Assembly: GCF_030930995.1 (NCBI RefSeq)
Contig: NZ_CP133217.1
Coordinates: 372,001-436,000 of the forward strand
DNA: 64,000 nt
Direction of reading: 5' to 3'
Origin: Thiothrix subterranea
GTDB taxonomy: Bacteria > Pseudomonadota > Gammaproteobacteria > Thiotrichales > Thiotrichaceae
Below the pieces are notes generated by a model. That model was not told the DNA's origin, made no database searches, and worked only from the letters and a program-made list of their open reading frames with translations. Of this stretch, positions 10,777 to 13,918 are shown in pieces. Position 1 is the stretch's first letter. Each line of letters begins with the position of its first letter. Made by a program: the position numbers and the translations under genes.

Positions 10777-13079
10777 GCATTGGCAAACCCATCAAACATG
10801 ACAGCGCCGAATTGCATGTCACGGGCGCGGCGCATTACACAGATGACCTGCCCGAACCCCGCGATACCTTGTACGCCGCCATCGGTATCAGCCAGCAAGC
10901 CCACGCCCGTTTGCGCAGCGTGAATCTGGATGCAGTACGCCAAGCAGCGGGGGTAATCGCTGTCATCACCGCCGCCGACATTACCGGCGTAAATCACCTT
11001 GGTGGGGCGATGCAGGATGAGCCAGTATTCGCCACCGACACCGTGGAATACATCGGGCAAGCCATTTTCGCCGTCGCTGCCACGTCCGTCGAAGCTGCCC
11101 GCCGTGCGGCGCGTTTGGCAGTGATTGATTACGACCCCTTGCCGCACAACCTCGACATCCAACACGCCGTTGAGCAACAGCAATTCGTCTTGCCCAGCAA
11201 ACACCTGCAACGCGGGCAACCCGAAACCGCCCTGCAACAAGCCCCCCATCGCCTCAGCGGGCATTTTCAGTTGGGCGGGCAGGAACATTTCTATCTGGAA
11301 GGCATGATTGCCTTTGCATTGCCACGTGAACATGGCGATGTGCTGATCTATAGCTCTACCCAGCATCCGCACCACGACCAGAAAACCCTCGCAAGCGTCT
11401 TGGGGCTAACCGAGAAAGACATTGTGCTGGAATGCCGCCGCATGGGTGGCGCATTCGGTGGCAAAGAAAGCCAACCGGCACTGTTTGCCAGCATTGCCGC
11501 GCTGCTTGCGCTGAAAACCCAACGCCCAGTGAAACTGCGACTGGATCGGGACGATGACATTACCATCACCGGCAAACGCCATTGTTTCGACATTCACTAC
11601 GAAGCCGGTTTCAACGACGCGGGGCTGCTGCAAGGGGTGAAGTTGGTGTATGCCTCGCGTTGCGGCATTTCCGCTGACCTGTCAGGGCCGGTGAATGACC
11701 GCAGCATGTTCCACGCCGACAATGCCTATTACCTTGAGCATGTGGATATTGTTTCGCACCGTTGCAAGACCAATTCGCAATCGAATACCGCGTTTCGTGG
11801 CTTTGGTGGCCCGCAAGGGATGATGGCGATTGAATACGTGCTGGACGACGTGGCGCGTTACCTGCAATGCGACCCGCTGGCGGTGCGCCGTGCCAATTTC
11901 TACGGTACAAATGGCGTGCGCAGCCAAACCCATTACGGCATGGAGGTCGAGGACAATATTATCCAGCGCATTGTCAATGAACTGGAAAGCAGTGCCGACT
12001 ACCAGCAACGCCGTGCTGATATTATTGCGTTCAACCGCAACAGTCCGTGGTTGAAGAAAGGCATGGCGCTCACCCCCGTCAAATTCGGTATTTCCTTTAC
12101 CGCGACGTTTTTCAATCAGGCGGGGGCATTGCTGCACATTTACAGCGACGGTTCGGTACAGCTCAATCACGGCGGGCTGGAAATGGGGCAAGGCTTGTAT
12201 ACAAAGGTGGCACAAGTGGTGGCGGAAGAATTGCAAATTCCGCTCAGTCAAATCCGCTGTACCGCTACCCGTACCGATAAAGTGCCGAATGCGTCGGCAA
12301 CGGCCGCATCCTCCGGCTCTGACCTCAACGGCATGGCGGCACAAGATGCAGCACGTACTTTAAAACAACGCCTCACCGAATTTGCCGCCAGCCACTACGG
12401 GGTGGATGCTGCAAGCATTGTGTTTCAGGACGGGCAAATTCATCTCGGCACGGCAAAAACCGTGAGTTTTGCGCACCTAGCACACGATGCTTGGATAAAT
12501 CGCATTTCGCTATCAGCCACGGGCTTTTACCGTACCCCGAAAATCCATTACGACCCGCAAACCATGACCGGGCGACCGTTCTATTACTTTGCCTATGGTG
12601 CGGCAGTATCTGAGGTGATCATCGATACCTTGACGGGCGAAAATCGGGTAGTGCGCGTCGATATTCTGCACGATGTCGGGCAATCGCTGAATCCGGCGCT
12701 GGATATTGGGCAAATCGAAGGCGGTTTCATTCAGGGTATGGGGTGGCTGACCACGGAACAATTGTGGTGGGATAACAGCGGGCGGTTGCGTACTCATGCA
12801 CCGTCCACCTACAAAATTCCGGTGGCGGGGGATATTCCCACGCAGTTTACGGTGAAGCTGCTGGACAATAATGCCAATGTGGAACACACCATTTACCGTT
12901 CCAAAGCGGTGGGCGAACCGCCGCTGATGTTGGCAATGTCGGTGTTTTTTGCGTTGCGGGATGCGGTTGCCAGTGTCGGCGATTACCGTTGCAGCCCGCC
13001 ATTGCAAGCGCCAGCGACACCGGAAGCAATTCTGAATGCGGTGCAAGCGGTGCGTGACACCATGCAGGACAACGCATGA
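10773..13079 (+). CDS. xdhB: Xanthine dehydrogenase molybdopterin-binding subunit
   Basis: Catalytic molybdenum subunit that hydroxylates xanthine at C8. The 768-residue protein shows the family landmarks: HVTGAAHYTDD at the N-terminus, GGAFGGKE, RTAFRGFGG-like NTAFRGFGGPQG (molybdopterin contact and substrate Arg), MGQGLYTKV, and the catalytic Glu in VGEPPLML near the C-terminus. I start at the ATG at 10773, which overlaps xdhA; the longer upstream frame lies inside xdhA and is not needed. It overlaps xdhC by 4 bases. Confidence 0.96.
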   Translation: MSIGKPIKHDSAELHVTGAAHYTDDLPEPRDTLYAAIGISQQAHARLRSVNLDAVRQAAGVIAVITAADITGVNHLGGAMQDEPVFATDTVEYIGQAIFAVAATSVEAARRAARLAVIDYDPLPHNLDIQHAVEQQQFVLPSKHLQRGQPETALQQAPHRLSGHFQLGGQEHFYLEGMIAFALPREHGDVLIYSSTQHPHHDQKTLASVLGLTEKDIVLECRRMGGAFGGKESQPALFASIAALLALKTQRPVKLRLDRDDDITITGKRHCFDIHYEAGFNDAGLLQGVKLVYASRCGISADLSGPVNDRSMFHADNAYYLEHVDIVSHRCKTNSQSNTAFRGFGGPQGMMAIEYVLDDVARYLQCDPLAVRRANFYGTNGVRSQTHYGMEVEDNIIQRIVNELESSADYQQRRADIIAFNRNSPWLKKGMALTPVKFGISFTATFFNQAGALLHIYSDGSVQLNHGGLEMGQGLYTKVAQVVAEELQIPLSQIRCTATRTDKVPNASATAASSGSDLNGMAAQDAARTLKQRLTEFAASHYGVDAASIVFQDGQIHLGTAKTVSFAHLAHDAWINRISLSATGFYRTPKIHYDPQTMTGRPFYYFAYGAAVSEVIIDTLTGENRVVRVDILHDVGQSLNPALDIGQIEGGFIQGMGWLTTEQLWWDNSGRLRTHAPSTYKIPVAGDIPTQFTVKLLDNNANVEHTIYRSKAVGEPPLMLAMSVFFALRDAVASVGDYRCSPPLQAPATPEAILNAVQAVRDTMQDNA

Positions 13080-13918
13080 TTCCAGCCGCCTTCATCATTG
13101 CCCGCATTGCCGATACGCAAGGTTCAACCCCGCGTGAAAACGGGGCGTACATGCTGATTGCGGCGGAGGAATCCTTGGGGAGTATCGGTGGTGGCAAGCT
13201 GGAACAGCAGGTGATGGAAGAAGCGCGGGCGTTATTGGCGGAAACAGAGATTGGAGAGGGCGACCGCCGGTCGCCCCTACAGGGAACGGTTTTCGTAGGG
13301 GCGACCGGCGGTCGCCCTCTTCAACTCCAACGTGAATTCACTCTCGGCCCAACACTGGGGCAATGTTGCGGCGGGCGCGTCCACATCCGCTACGAATACT
13401 GCGCTGACCCACAGCAATGGCAACACCCCGATGCCATCAACGCCAACCAATTCCCAATTGTGCTATTTGGTGCAGGGCATGTCGGGCAAGCACTCGCGCC
13501 GATACTGGCAACCCAGCATTGCCGTTTGTATTGGGTCGATAGTCGCGAGGAGCAGTTCCCCGCCGAATTGCCCGCCAATGCCAAAGCCTATATTGCCCCC
13601 AACCCTGCCAGCTTGATCGAAGCCTTACCAGACAACGCCTACCTGCTGGTGATGACGCACGATCACGCGCTGGATTTAGCGATTTGCGATGCCGCCTTGC
13701 GCCACAACCGTTTCCGCTTTCTGGGGCTGATCGGTTCGCAAACCAAGCTCGGCAAATTCCGCAAGCACTTGCTGGATAAGGGGCATAGCCATACAACGCT
13801 GGAACGCCTCGTTTGCCCCATCGGTATTGCGCAAATCCGCAGCAAGCAGCCCGCCCACATTGCCCTTGCCGTCGCCGCGCAATTGCTGGCATTACACCTA
13901 CAGGAGAACCCGCTATGA
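13076..13918 (+). CDS. xdhC: XdhC molybdenum-cofactor maturation factor, with in-frame palindrome insertion
   Basis: Chaperone that binds and delivers sulfurated molybdenum cofactor to XdhB. The N-terminal XdhC/CoxI domain has TQGSTPRENGAYML, GSIGGGKLE and LGQCCGG (cofactor-binding Cys pair). The C-terminal Rossmann-like domain has VLFGAGHVGQALAPIL and GLIGSQTK. Residues about 60-82 are absent from homologues I know and are encoded by a 66-bp palindromic element (13255-13320). The frame is kept, so the protein is probably functional with an extra surface loop. It overlaps both xdhB and the ATPase gene by ATGA. Confidence 0.93.
   Translation: MIPAAFIIARIADTQGSTPRENGAYMLIAAEESLGSIGGGKLEQQVMEEARALLAETEIGEGDRRSPLQGTVFVGATGGRPLQLQREFTLGPTLGQCCGGRVHIRYEYCADPQQWQHPDAINANQFPIVLFGAGHVGQALAPILATQHCRLYWVDSREEQFPAELPANAKAYIAPNPASLIEALPDNAYLLVMTHDHALDLAICDAALRHNRFRFLGLIGSQTKLGKFRKHLLDKGHSHTTLERLVCPIGIAQIRSKQPAHIALAVAAQLLALHLQENPL
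13255..13320. repeat. 66-bp palindromic element inserted in frame in xdhC
   Basis: Perfect 26-bp inverted repeats (13255-13280 and 13295-13320) flank a 14-bp loop. Each arm is itself nearly palindromic (GGCGACCG-C-CGGTCGCC). The length is 22 codons exactly, so the reading frame of xdhC is preserved. The outer end GTAGGGGC matches the start of the 28-bp palindrome at 53283. Confidence 0.92.

Follow-up and report, generated by a model that had tools for sequence, protein, structure and literature searches.

The xdhC gene of Thiothrix subterranea carries an in-frame element that is almost certainly a dimer of GTAG REPs. The dimer occupies the same nucleotide in three species, and between two of them both arms differ in REP class while the spacer is identical base for base. 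We consider it quite probable that an ancestral REP dimer insertion was followed by arm copying and by in-place replacement of the REP class. The window is the whole 64,000-nucleotide stretch that was analysed; its genome is termed G000, and the other genomes compared are G001, G005-G007, G009-G012 and G015.

The 280-codon ORF that contains the element matched TIGR02964 (xanthine_xdhC) over the cut-off in a profile search (E 2.7e-80). Its Pfam domains flank the insert (XdhC_CoxI, residues 5-57; XdhC_C, residues 128-270), and the gene order is xdhA and xdhB, then xdhC. A Thiotrichaceae MAG and Thiolinea disciformis gave the best-scoring named XdhC homologues among the matches listed, a list that may leave out records of the window's own genome or near ones. 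The sequence-only reading had described an intact gene and frame and a perfect 26-bp inverted repeat with a 14-bp loop, and we confirmed both (arms 13255-13280 and 13295-13320). Its element length of 66 bp holds for the perfect repeat, but the family consensus (GAAGAGGGCG...CGCCCTCTTC) sets slightly wider limits, giving 70 bp. Allowing one mismatch, the arms are 30 nt long (13251-13280 and 13295-13324). Each arm consists of the GTAG tag, an 8-bp stem (GGGCGACC/GGTCGCCC) and a 3-nt loop, with the tags inside. The single-stranded DNA fold of 13245-13330 reached -43 kcal/mol versus -14.4 (sd 2.4) in shuffles (z -12.1), and 0 of 200 dinucleotide-preserving shuffles folded as well, which rules out a chance palindrome.

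Table 1. Features of the xdhC element, and lists of related dimers and RAYT loci
Feature	Position in the window, or members	Strand	Detail or basis
xdhC (xanthine dehydrogenase accessory protein), insert in frame	13076..13918	+	ORF, 280 codons; TIGR02964; Pfam
Whole element: tail-to-tail GTAG REP dimer, 70 bp	13253..13322	.	dimer alignment, three-species comparison, protein alignment
Left REP	13253..13280	-	GTAG tag 13277-13280 on - strand; class-specific core ACCGCCGGT at 13263-13271
Spacer, 14 nt	13281..13294	.	AGGGAACGGTTTTC
Right REP	13295..13322	+	GTAG tag 13295-13298; class-specific core ACCGGCGGT at 13304-13312
G000 family-supported in-gene dimers	xdhC, argS, tmcA, pgl, ASCH-DEAD helicase gene, GH2 gene, nitrate-reductase-like (nasA-like) gene
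RAYT loci with an internal REP	L138, L328, L330, L329, L326, L136, L336, L327		of G000, G001, G010, G007, G011, G000, G007, G009, respectively

The element is one of many. An exact pattern of the xdhC design found 31 dimers in G000, versus 4 with a reversed control, one of the 31 (3781113) being of an odd class; tagged ACC-class sites (GTAGGGGCGACC) numbered 58, versus 3 for the reversed pattern. Element matches occurred in 10 of the 40 genomes searched (own included), all of the same genus, of which 16 members were searched. A wide spread of the TATTGCATA class was unsupported: a phylum-wide sample of 397 other genomes contained no copy of the exact 23-mer. Seven of the 31 dimers lie inside ORFs with family matches spanning the dimer or on both sides of it. 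Another dimer, also spanned by an opposite-strand ORF, is in a VWA-domain ORF whose domain is confined to one side of the dimer, and two are in large duplicated ORFs with no family assignment. The remaining G000 dimers have no spanning ORF, or only short or family-unassigned ones. G001 has two further in-gene dimers, in maf and in an MlaE-type gene. The proposal of a dispersed, once-mobile palindrome that adds a tolerated 22-residue loop was upheld.

The large ORF (937-1058 aa) is present in two copies per genome (G000:C2:525924 and 1775456; G001:C1:2217655 and 2221653). The same dimer, spacer included, lies in frame near the C-terminus in all four, as though duplication of the gene had carried it along. 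A 10-nt core, ACCAGCCGGT, was observed in several intergenic dimers (e.g. G000:C2:1357370, 1359620, 1362559 and 1527202) and, by eye, in none of the family-supported in-gene dimers. In-gene spacer lengths, 9 of 13 being 2 modulo 3, pointed to a fixed 2-bp target duplication. This idea was dropped, because 10 of 21 other G000 dimers were also 2 modulo 3 and because the empty sites found, when inspected for the short direct repeats of a MITE with target duplication, had flanks that diverged next to the insertion point. In the empty-site query, element ends were set 21 nt outside CCCCTAC, and a few were off by 1-2 bases.

Same-tag REPs also flank RAYT genes. The RAYT-like gene G000:C2:1359751-1360203, whose NF047646 score is below the cut-off, has near-class REPs (GTAGGGGCGACCGGCTGGTCGCCC, core ACCGGCTGGT) with the same tag on both sides. 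The RAYT of G007 is flanked by the exact class of the G000 xdhC copy, and that of G011 by the class present at xdhC in G006. Such flanking by same-tag REPs suggests that the xdhC element is a RAYT-linked REP dimer, a link to which proximity and the class match of RAYT and REPs both point. Among the results against the mechanism proposed below, no RAYT was found in G006 at the threshold used; therefore, a RAYT need not be present today.

Several RAYT loci had features of their own. A second RAYT-like gene of G000 (C2:3783910-3784335, L136) is flanked on each side by REPs of a class of its own, GTAGGGGCGGTTCGCGAACCGCCC, which form a run of copies spaced at about 74 bp. Among the 15 RAYT loci with a readable HUH ORF, 8 contain, directly behind the HUH motif, an in-frame REP matching those at the flanks of the same locus, and in all 7 loci tested by class the own class was the best match for the internal REP. 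In related RAYTs of G000 and G007, the internal and flanking classes differ together. The RAYT-like gene G015:C1:1455893-1457671 (L323, L333) scores over the family cut-off in two halves 1.3 kb apart, as if interrupted by an insertion.

We compared the insert with XdhC homologues. The stretch from ..LE to CCGG is 53 residues long in the window and 27-34 residues long in 77 of 78 measured homologues (those with both motifs among 80 named XdhC homologues, 2 of the 80 being without a motif), in agreement with the earlier claim that homologues lack the added stretch. A 26-row protein alignment placed the net gain of 22 residues at about residues 60-81, which correspond to 13253-13318. An AlphaFold2 model (26 sequences) had a mean pLDDT of 87 and values <50 at residues 62-64 and 67-79, between the helix at 41-59 and the strand at 83-89; the insert was thus modelled as a disordered loop. 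Outside the insert, the dN/dS of xdhC was 0.08-0.16, indicating purifying selection on the rest of XdhC. The one other exception among the homologues, XdhC of Psychrobacter sp. I-STPA10 (L272), has 60 residues between the motifs. Its loop at the same place is hydrophilic, unrelated and 29 residues over the usual length, and no palindrome was seen in it by eye. This XdhC site therefore tolerates insertions.

The presence-or-absence comparison of xdhC that the sequence-only reading had proposed located the dimer in G001 and G006 as well as in G000, and revealed no element in G005 and G015. The G005 gene (C1:2517393-2518145, L133) has a broken reading frame; a sequencing error is possible, and the genome is listed as 91% complete. 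The 14-nt spacer is identical in G001 and G006 (14/14), and that of G000 differs from both at two positions. G001 has the core ACCGCCGGT in both arms, and G006 has TATGCAATA in both. Within the 70-bp dimer, 14 of 18 core positions differ between these two genomes versus 0 of 52 other positions, and the dS of the rest of xdhC is 0.34; the Fisher test run with this comparison takes sites to be independent. The two core classes encode EGDRRSPL..VGATGGRPL and EGVCNTPL..VGAYCIRPL, respectively.

Two rival readings of the insert bear on these data. In one, selection acts on the 22 residues as part of XdhC, and the palindrome in their DNA is incidental, as retention of the insert in three species and the same-place loop of Psychrobacter might suggest. 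However, from G001 to G006 the peptide differs in step with the REP class, and the DNA remains symmetrical; unrelated genes contain the same DNA design; the insert is predicted to be disordered; and 77 of 78 homologues do without it. Because the peptide follows the DNA class, a selected protein loop is disfavoured and we regard it as very improbable. In the other, the hairpin persists because it regulates the xdhC transcript, for instance through pausing, attenuation or mRNA protection. This would fit its high stability, and REPs are often downstream of genes and presumed to act in RNA, according to extracts of PMC3733652. The xdhC hairpin, however, lies inside a translated stretch, G015 has an xdhC without it, and at least six further, unrelated genes of G000 contain dimers; a regulatory role is accordingly improbable.

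Class differences at unmoved sites were not limited to xdhC. At one position in argS there are three classes, AAT (G000 and G001), ACC (G007) and TAT (G012), with spacers CATCCCCC, CATCCTCC and CATCTTCC, respectively; argS of G006 and G015 has a single TAT arm. At the nasA-like site, G000 and G001 have ACT/ACC (spacer CGTGAATCTCC), G012 has TAT (spacer CGTGAATATTC), and the element is absent from G006 and G015. At tmcA, G001 has AAT/AAT, G006 has TAT/TAT, and G000 combines AAT/TAT with an inverted spacer. At the helicase site, G000 and G001 share ACC/ACC, and G006 has ACC/TAT. All five loci with a changed class and a similar spacer lie in genes, where orthology is easiest to recognize, and their share is not a rate. 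Class differed in at least one arm in 4 of 8 G000/G006 pairs and in 2 of 22 G000/G001 pairs, the latter set leaving out the two duplicated large-ORF sites, maf and the glycosyltransferase site; site 2902460 is outside the comparison with G001 and G006. Other sites were unchanged: class TAT and an identical spacer are shared by G000, G006, G007 and G015 at the GH2 site, and class ACC and an identical spacer by G000 and G012 at site 524002; three genomes have one class at site 1527202.

ACC/ACC is the commonest dimer in G000 (20/31) and G001 (22/30, after the pattern hit 2215435, which is not a REP, was dropped from the class counts), and TAT/TAT in G006 (7/9). In each of these genomes, the xdhC dimer is of the class commonest among that genome's dimers. 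The argS class AAT/AAT is rare in its genomes (1/31 in G000, 2/30 in G001), a result that speaks against a takeover of every site by the commonest class. In the REP lists of G012 and G015, TAT is the dominant class, a hint that at xdhC TAT may be older than ACC.

These differences could have arisen if different REP dimers had inserted independently at the same nucleotide, through a strong RAYT target preference or through homing into older REP remnants. Such remnants could be the single-arm copies at argS (G006, G015) and at the VWA-domain site (G015). Sites 1335667 and 1357370 changed between species in spacer as well as in class, a pattern that suits re-insertion better than in-place exchange. 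The 14-nt spacers are also alike between loci, and we therefore compared each spacer with its counterpart and with the best match at any other locus. At argS (AAT/TAT) the test was a tie (6/8 versus 6), as it was at tmcA (13/14 versus 13), where the rival spacer may be tmcA's own inverted G000 copy, which was kept in the comparison. At xdhC the same locus won by one base (14 versus 13 of 14), although both arms had changed class. The nasA-like spacer matched at 9 of 11 positions versus 6 at the best other locus, and the helicase dimer, changed in one arm, retained the other arm and 10 of 11 spacer bases. The spacers kept at xdhC, the nasA-like site and the helicase site argue against independent insertion, which we consider unlikely; the two ties and the one-base margin at xdhC count against in-place class replacement, which we nevertheless consider probable.

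The two arms of a dimer behave as one unit. Both arms were of the same coarse class (labels in which ACC lumps 9- and 10-nt cores) in 29 of 31 G000 dimers and 29 of 30 G001 dimers, above all 10,000 shuffles; in G006, the pairing of arm classes was not significant (8/9, P 0.18). The 22 G000/G001 pairs included three inverted spacers, one dimer replaced whole and two mirrored changes; a fourth inverted spacer was found between G000 and G006 at 1335667. Two or more mirrored changes were expected by chance with a probability of 0.0012 (simulation, 5+5 split of differences). Against arm copying, the same 22 pairs contained six single-arm changes without a mirror. At the glycosyltransferase site, G000 and G006 share a mismatch and the arms match in G001, as would result from copying of the altered right arm onto the left. 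In yeast coding genes, template switching is reported to leave two marks, homogenized arms and inverted spacers (PMC8604942). We regard arm copying by template switching as fairly probable in these dimers.

From the comparative pattern we infer a single ancestral insertion, template switching, and either ectopic conversion or RAYT-catalysed exchange. A GTAG REP dimer, a non-autonomous element of RAYT (TnpA-REP), would have inserted once before the G000/G001/G006 split, presumably by RAYT, into the loop between the helix of the N-terminal domain and the strand before LGQCCGG, with the frame kept. The insert would have survived because the loop was tolerated, and the loop would have been free to vary under purifying selection on XdhC. 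Since then, the dimer may have behaved as a member of a population of interacting REPs. Template switching during replication, by copying one arm to the other, would keep the arms complementary, and the same process would flip the spacer in other dimers. For class replacement, one arm would be exchanged with another REP, by ectopic conversion or RAYT-catalysed exchange, and then copied to the other arm. The half-changed dimers (tmcA in G000, helicase in G006 and G001:2616581) are the intermediates expected under such one-arm exchange. In one lineage, both xdhC cores would thus have been replaced in place, with the spacer, the GTAG tags and the flanking gene kept.

This mechanism would provide a route for the coordinated change of 14 bases in a protein gene while the dN/dS of the rest is about 0.1. 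It may be that REP dimers of the genus evolve in concert, and that a class converts older copies in place, arm by arm, with spacers and flanks kept, also in conserved protein genes. RAYT-linked repeats would thus repeatedly rewrite host-protein loops of about 22 residues without breakage. On this generalization our judgement is evenly balanced. Coding sites such as xdhC and argS are good recorders, since orthology can be read from the host gene, the individual insertion from the spacer and the class from the core; with them, decay and reinsertion versus in-place conversion becomes a testable choice. We found no earlier report of in-place class exchange at dispersed coding REPs in the literature searched, mostly outside subscription journals. 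The idea of conversion is old for REPs, to judge from the title of a 1988 review cited in PMC3116915, which asks if REPs evolve by gene conversion.

The kind of element is already known. Extracts of Di Nocera et al. 2013 (PMC3733652) describe intragenic GTAG REPs in several bacteria other than Rickettsia, with dimers or groups that code for 20-30 residues making up over half of the intragenic inserts. In-frame REP dimers outside Rickettsia are thus in print, and the earlier view that such insertions are uncommon outside that group does not hold. As in Rickettsia palindromic elements, palindromes here lie in frame in genes. However, the same source places the intragenic R. conorii repeats, and RPE-4 and RPE-6, in the CGTC class, and the GTAG tag rules out a Rickettsia-type element, the comparison drawn by the sequence-only reading. 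The xdhC element has the features of the GTAG REP superfamily: a tag at the end of a short stem-loop, tail-to-tail dimers, many dispersed copies that are often paired, REP-flanked RAYT genes and in-frame inserts coding for about 20-30 residues. Our core classes were set without matching to the 24 families of that paper, and its extracts do not describe REP class exchange at orthologous dimers.

Like REPINs (Bertels and Rainey 2011, PMC3116915), the xdhC element consists of two inverted REPs and a spacer that form one hairpin and appear to be RAYT-linked; compensatory changes across the REPIN hairpin are mentioned in that paper. REPINs are placed there in extragenic space, whereas at least 7 of the 31 dimers here are in genes, the xdhC copy in frame. 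It is therefore filed as an intragenic GTAG REP dimer that may work like a REPIN. Internal REPs in RAYT genes are also known: TnpA-REP subclass 2.4 (Quentin et al. 2018, PMC6006769) has in-frame REPs in the transposase gene, between the HuH and Y motifs. The RAYTs of this genus have an in-frame REP after the HUH motif at 8 of 15 readable loci and were likened to subclass 2.4 by this internal REP, not by subclass models. The joint change of internal and flanking class is not mentioned in the text of that paper at hand.

As in the yeast coding inverted repeats of PMC8604942, arm homogenization and spacer inversion occur here in coding DNA; the repeats here are in addition a mobile family with probable class exchange, neither of which the available text of that paper describes. 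The closest parallel to the class differences themselves is the REP orthoswitch (Nunvar et al. 2013, PMC3686654), in which class differs between relatives at orthologous places. Extracts of that paper report the orthoswitch at RAYT flanks and call the mechanism by which REP classes replace one another speculative. In its model, old dispersed REP copies stay and decay in place by mutation. The dispersed copies described here do not fit that model, since at one and the same site their class varies between relatives and their spacer is retained.
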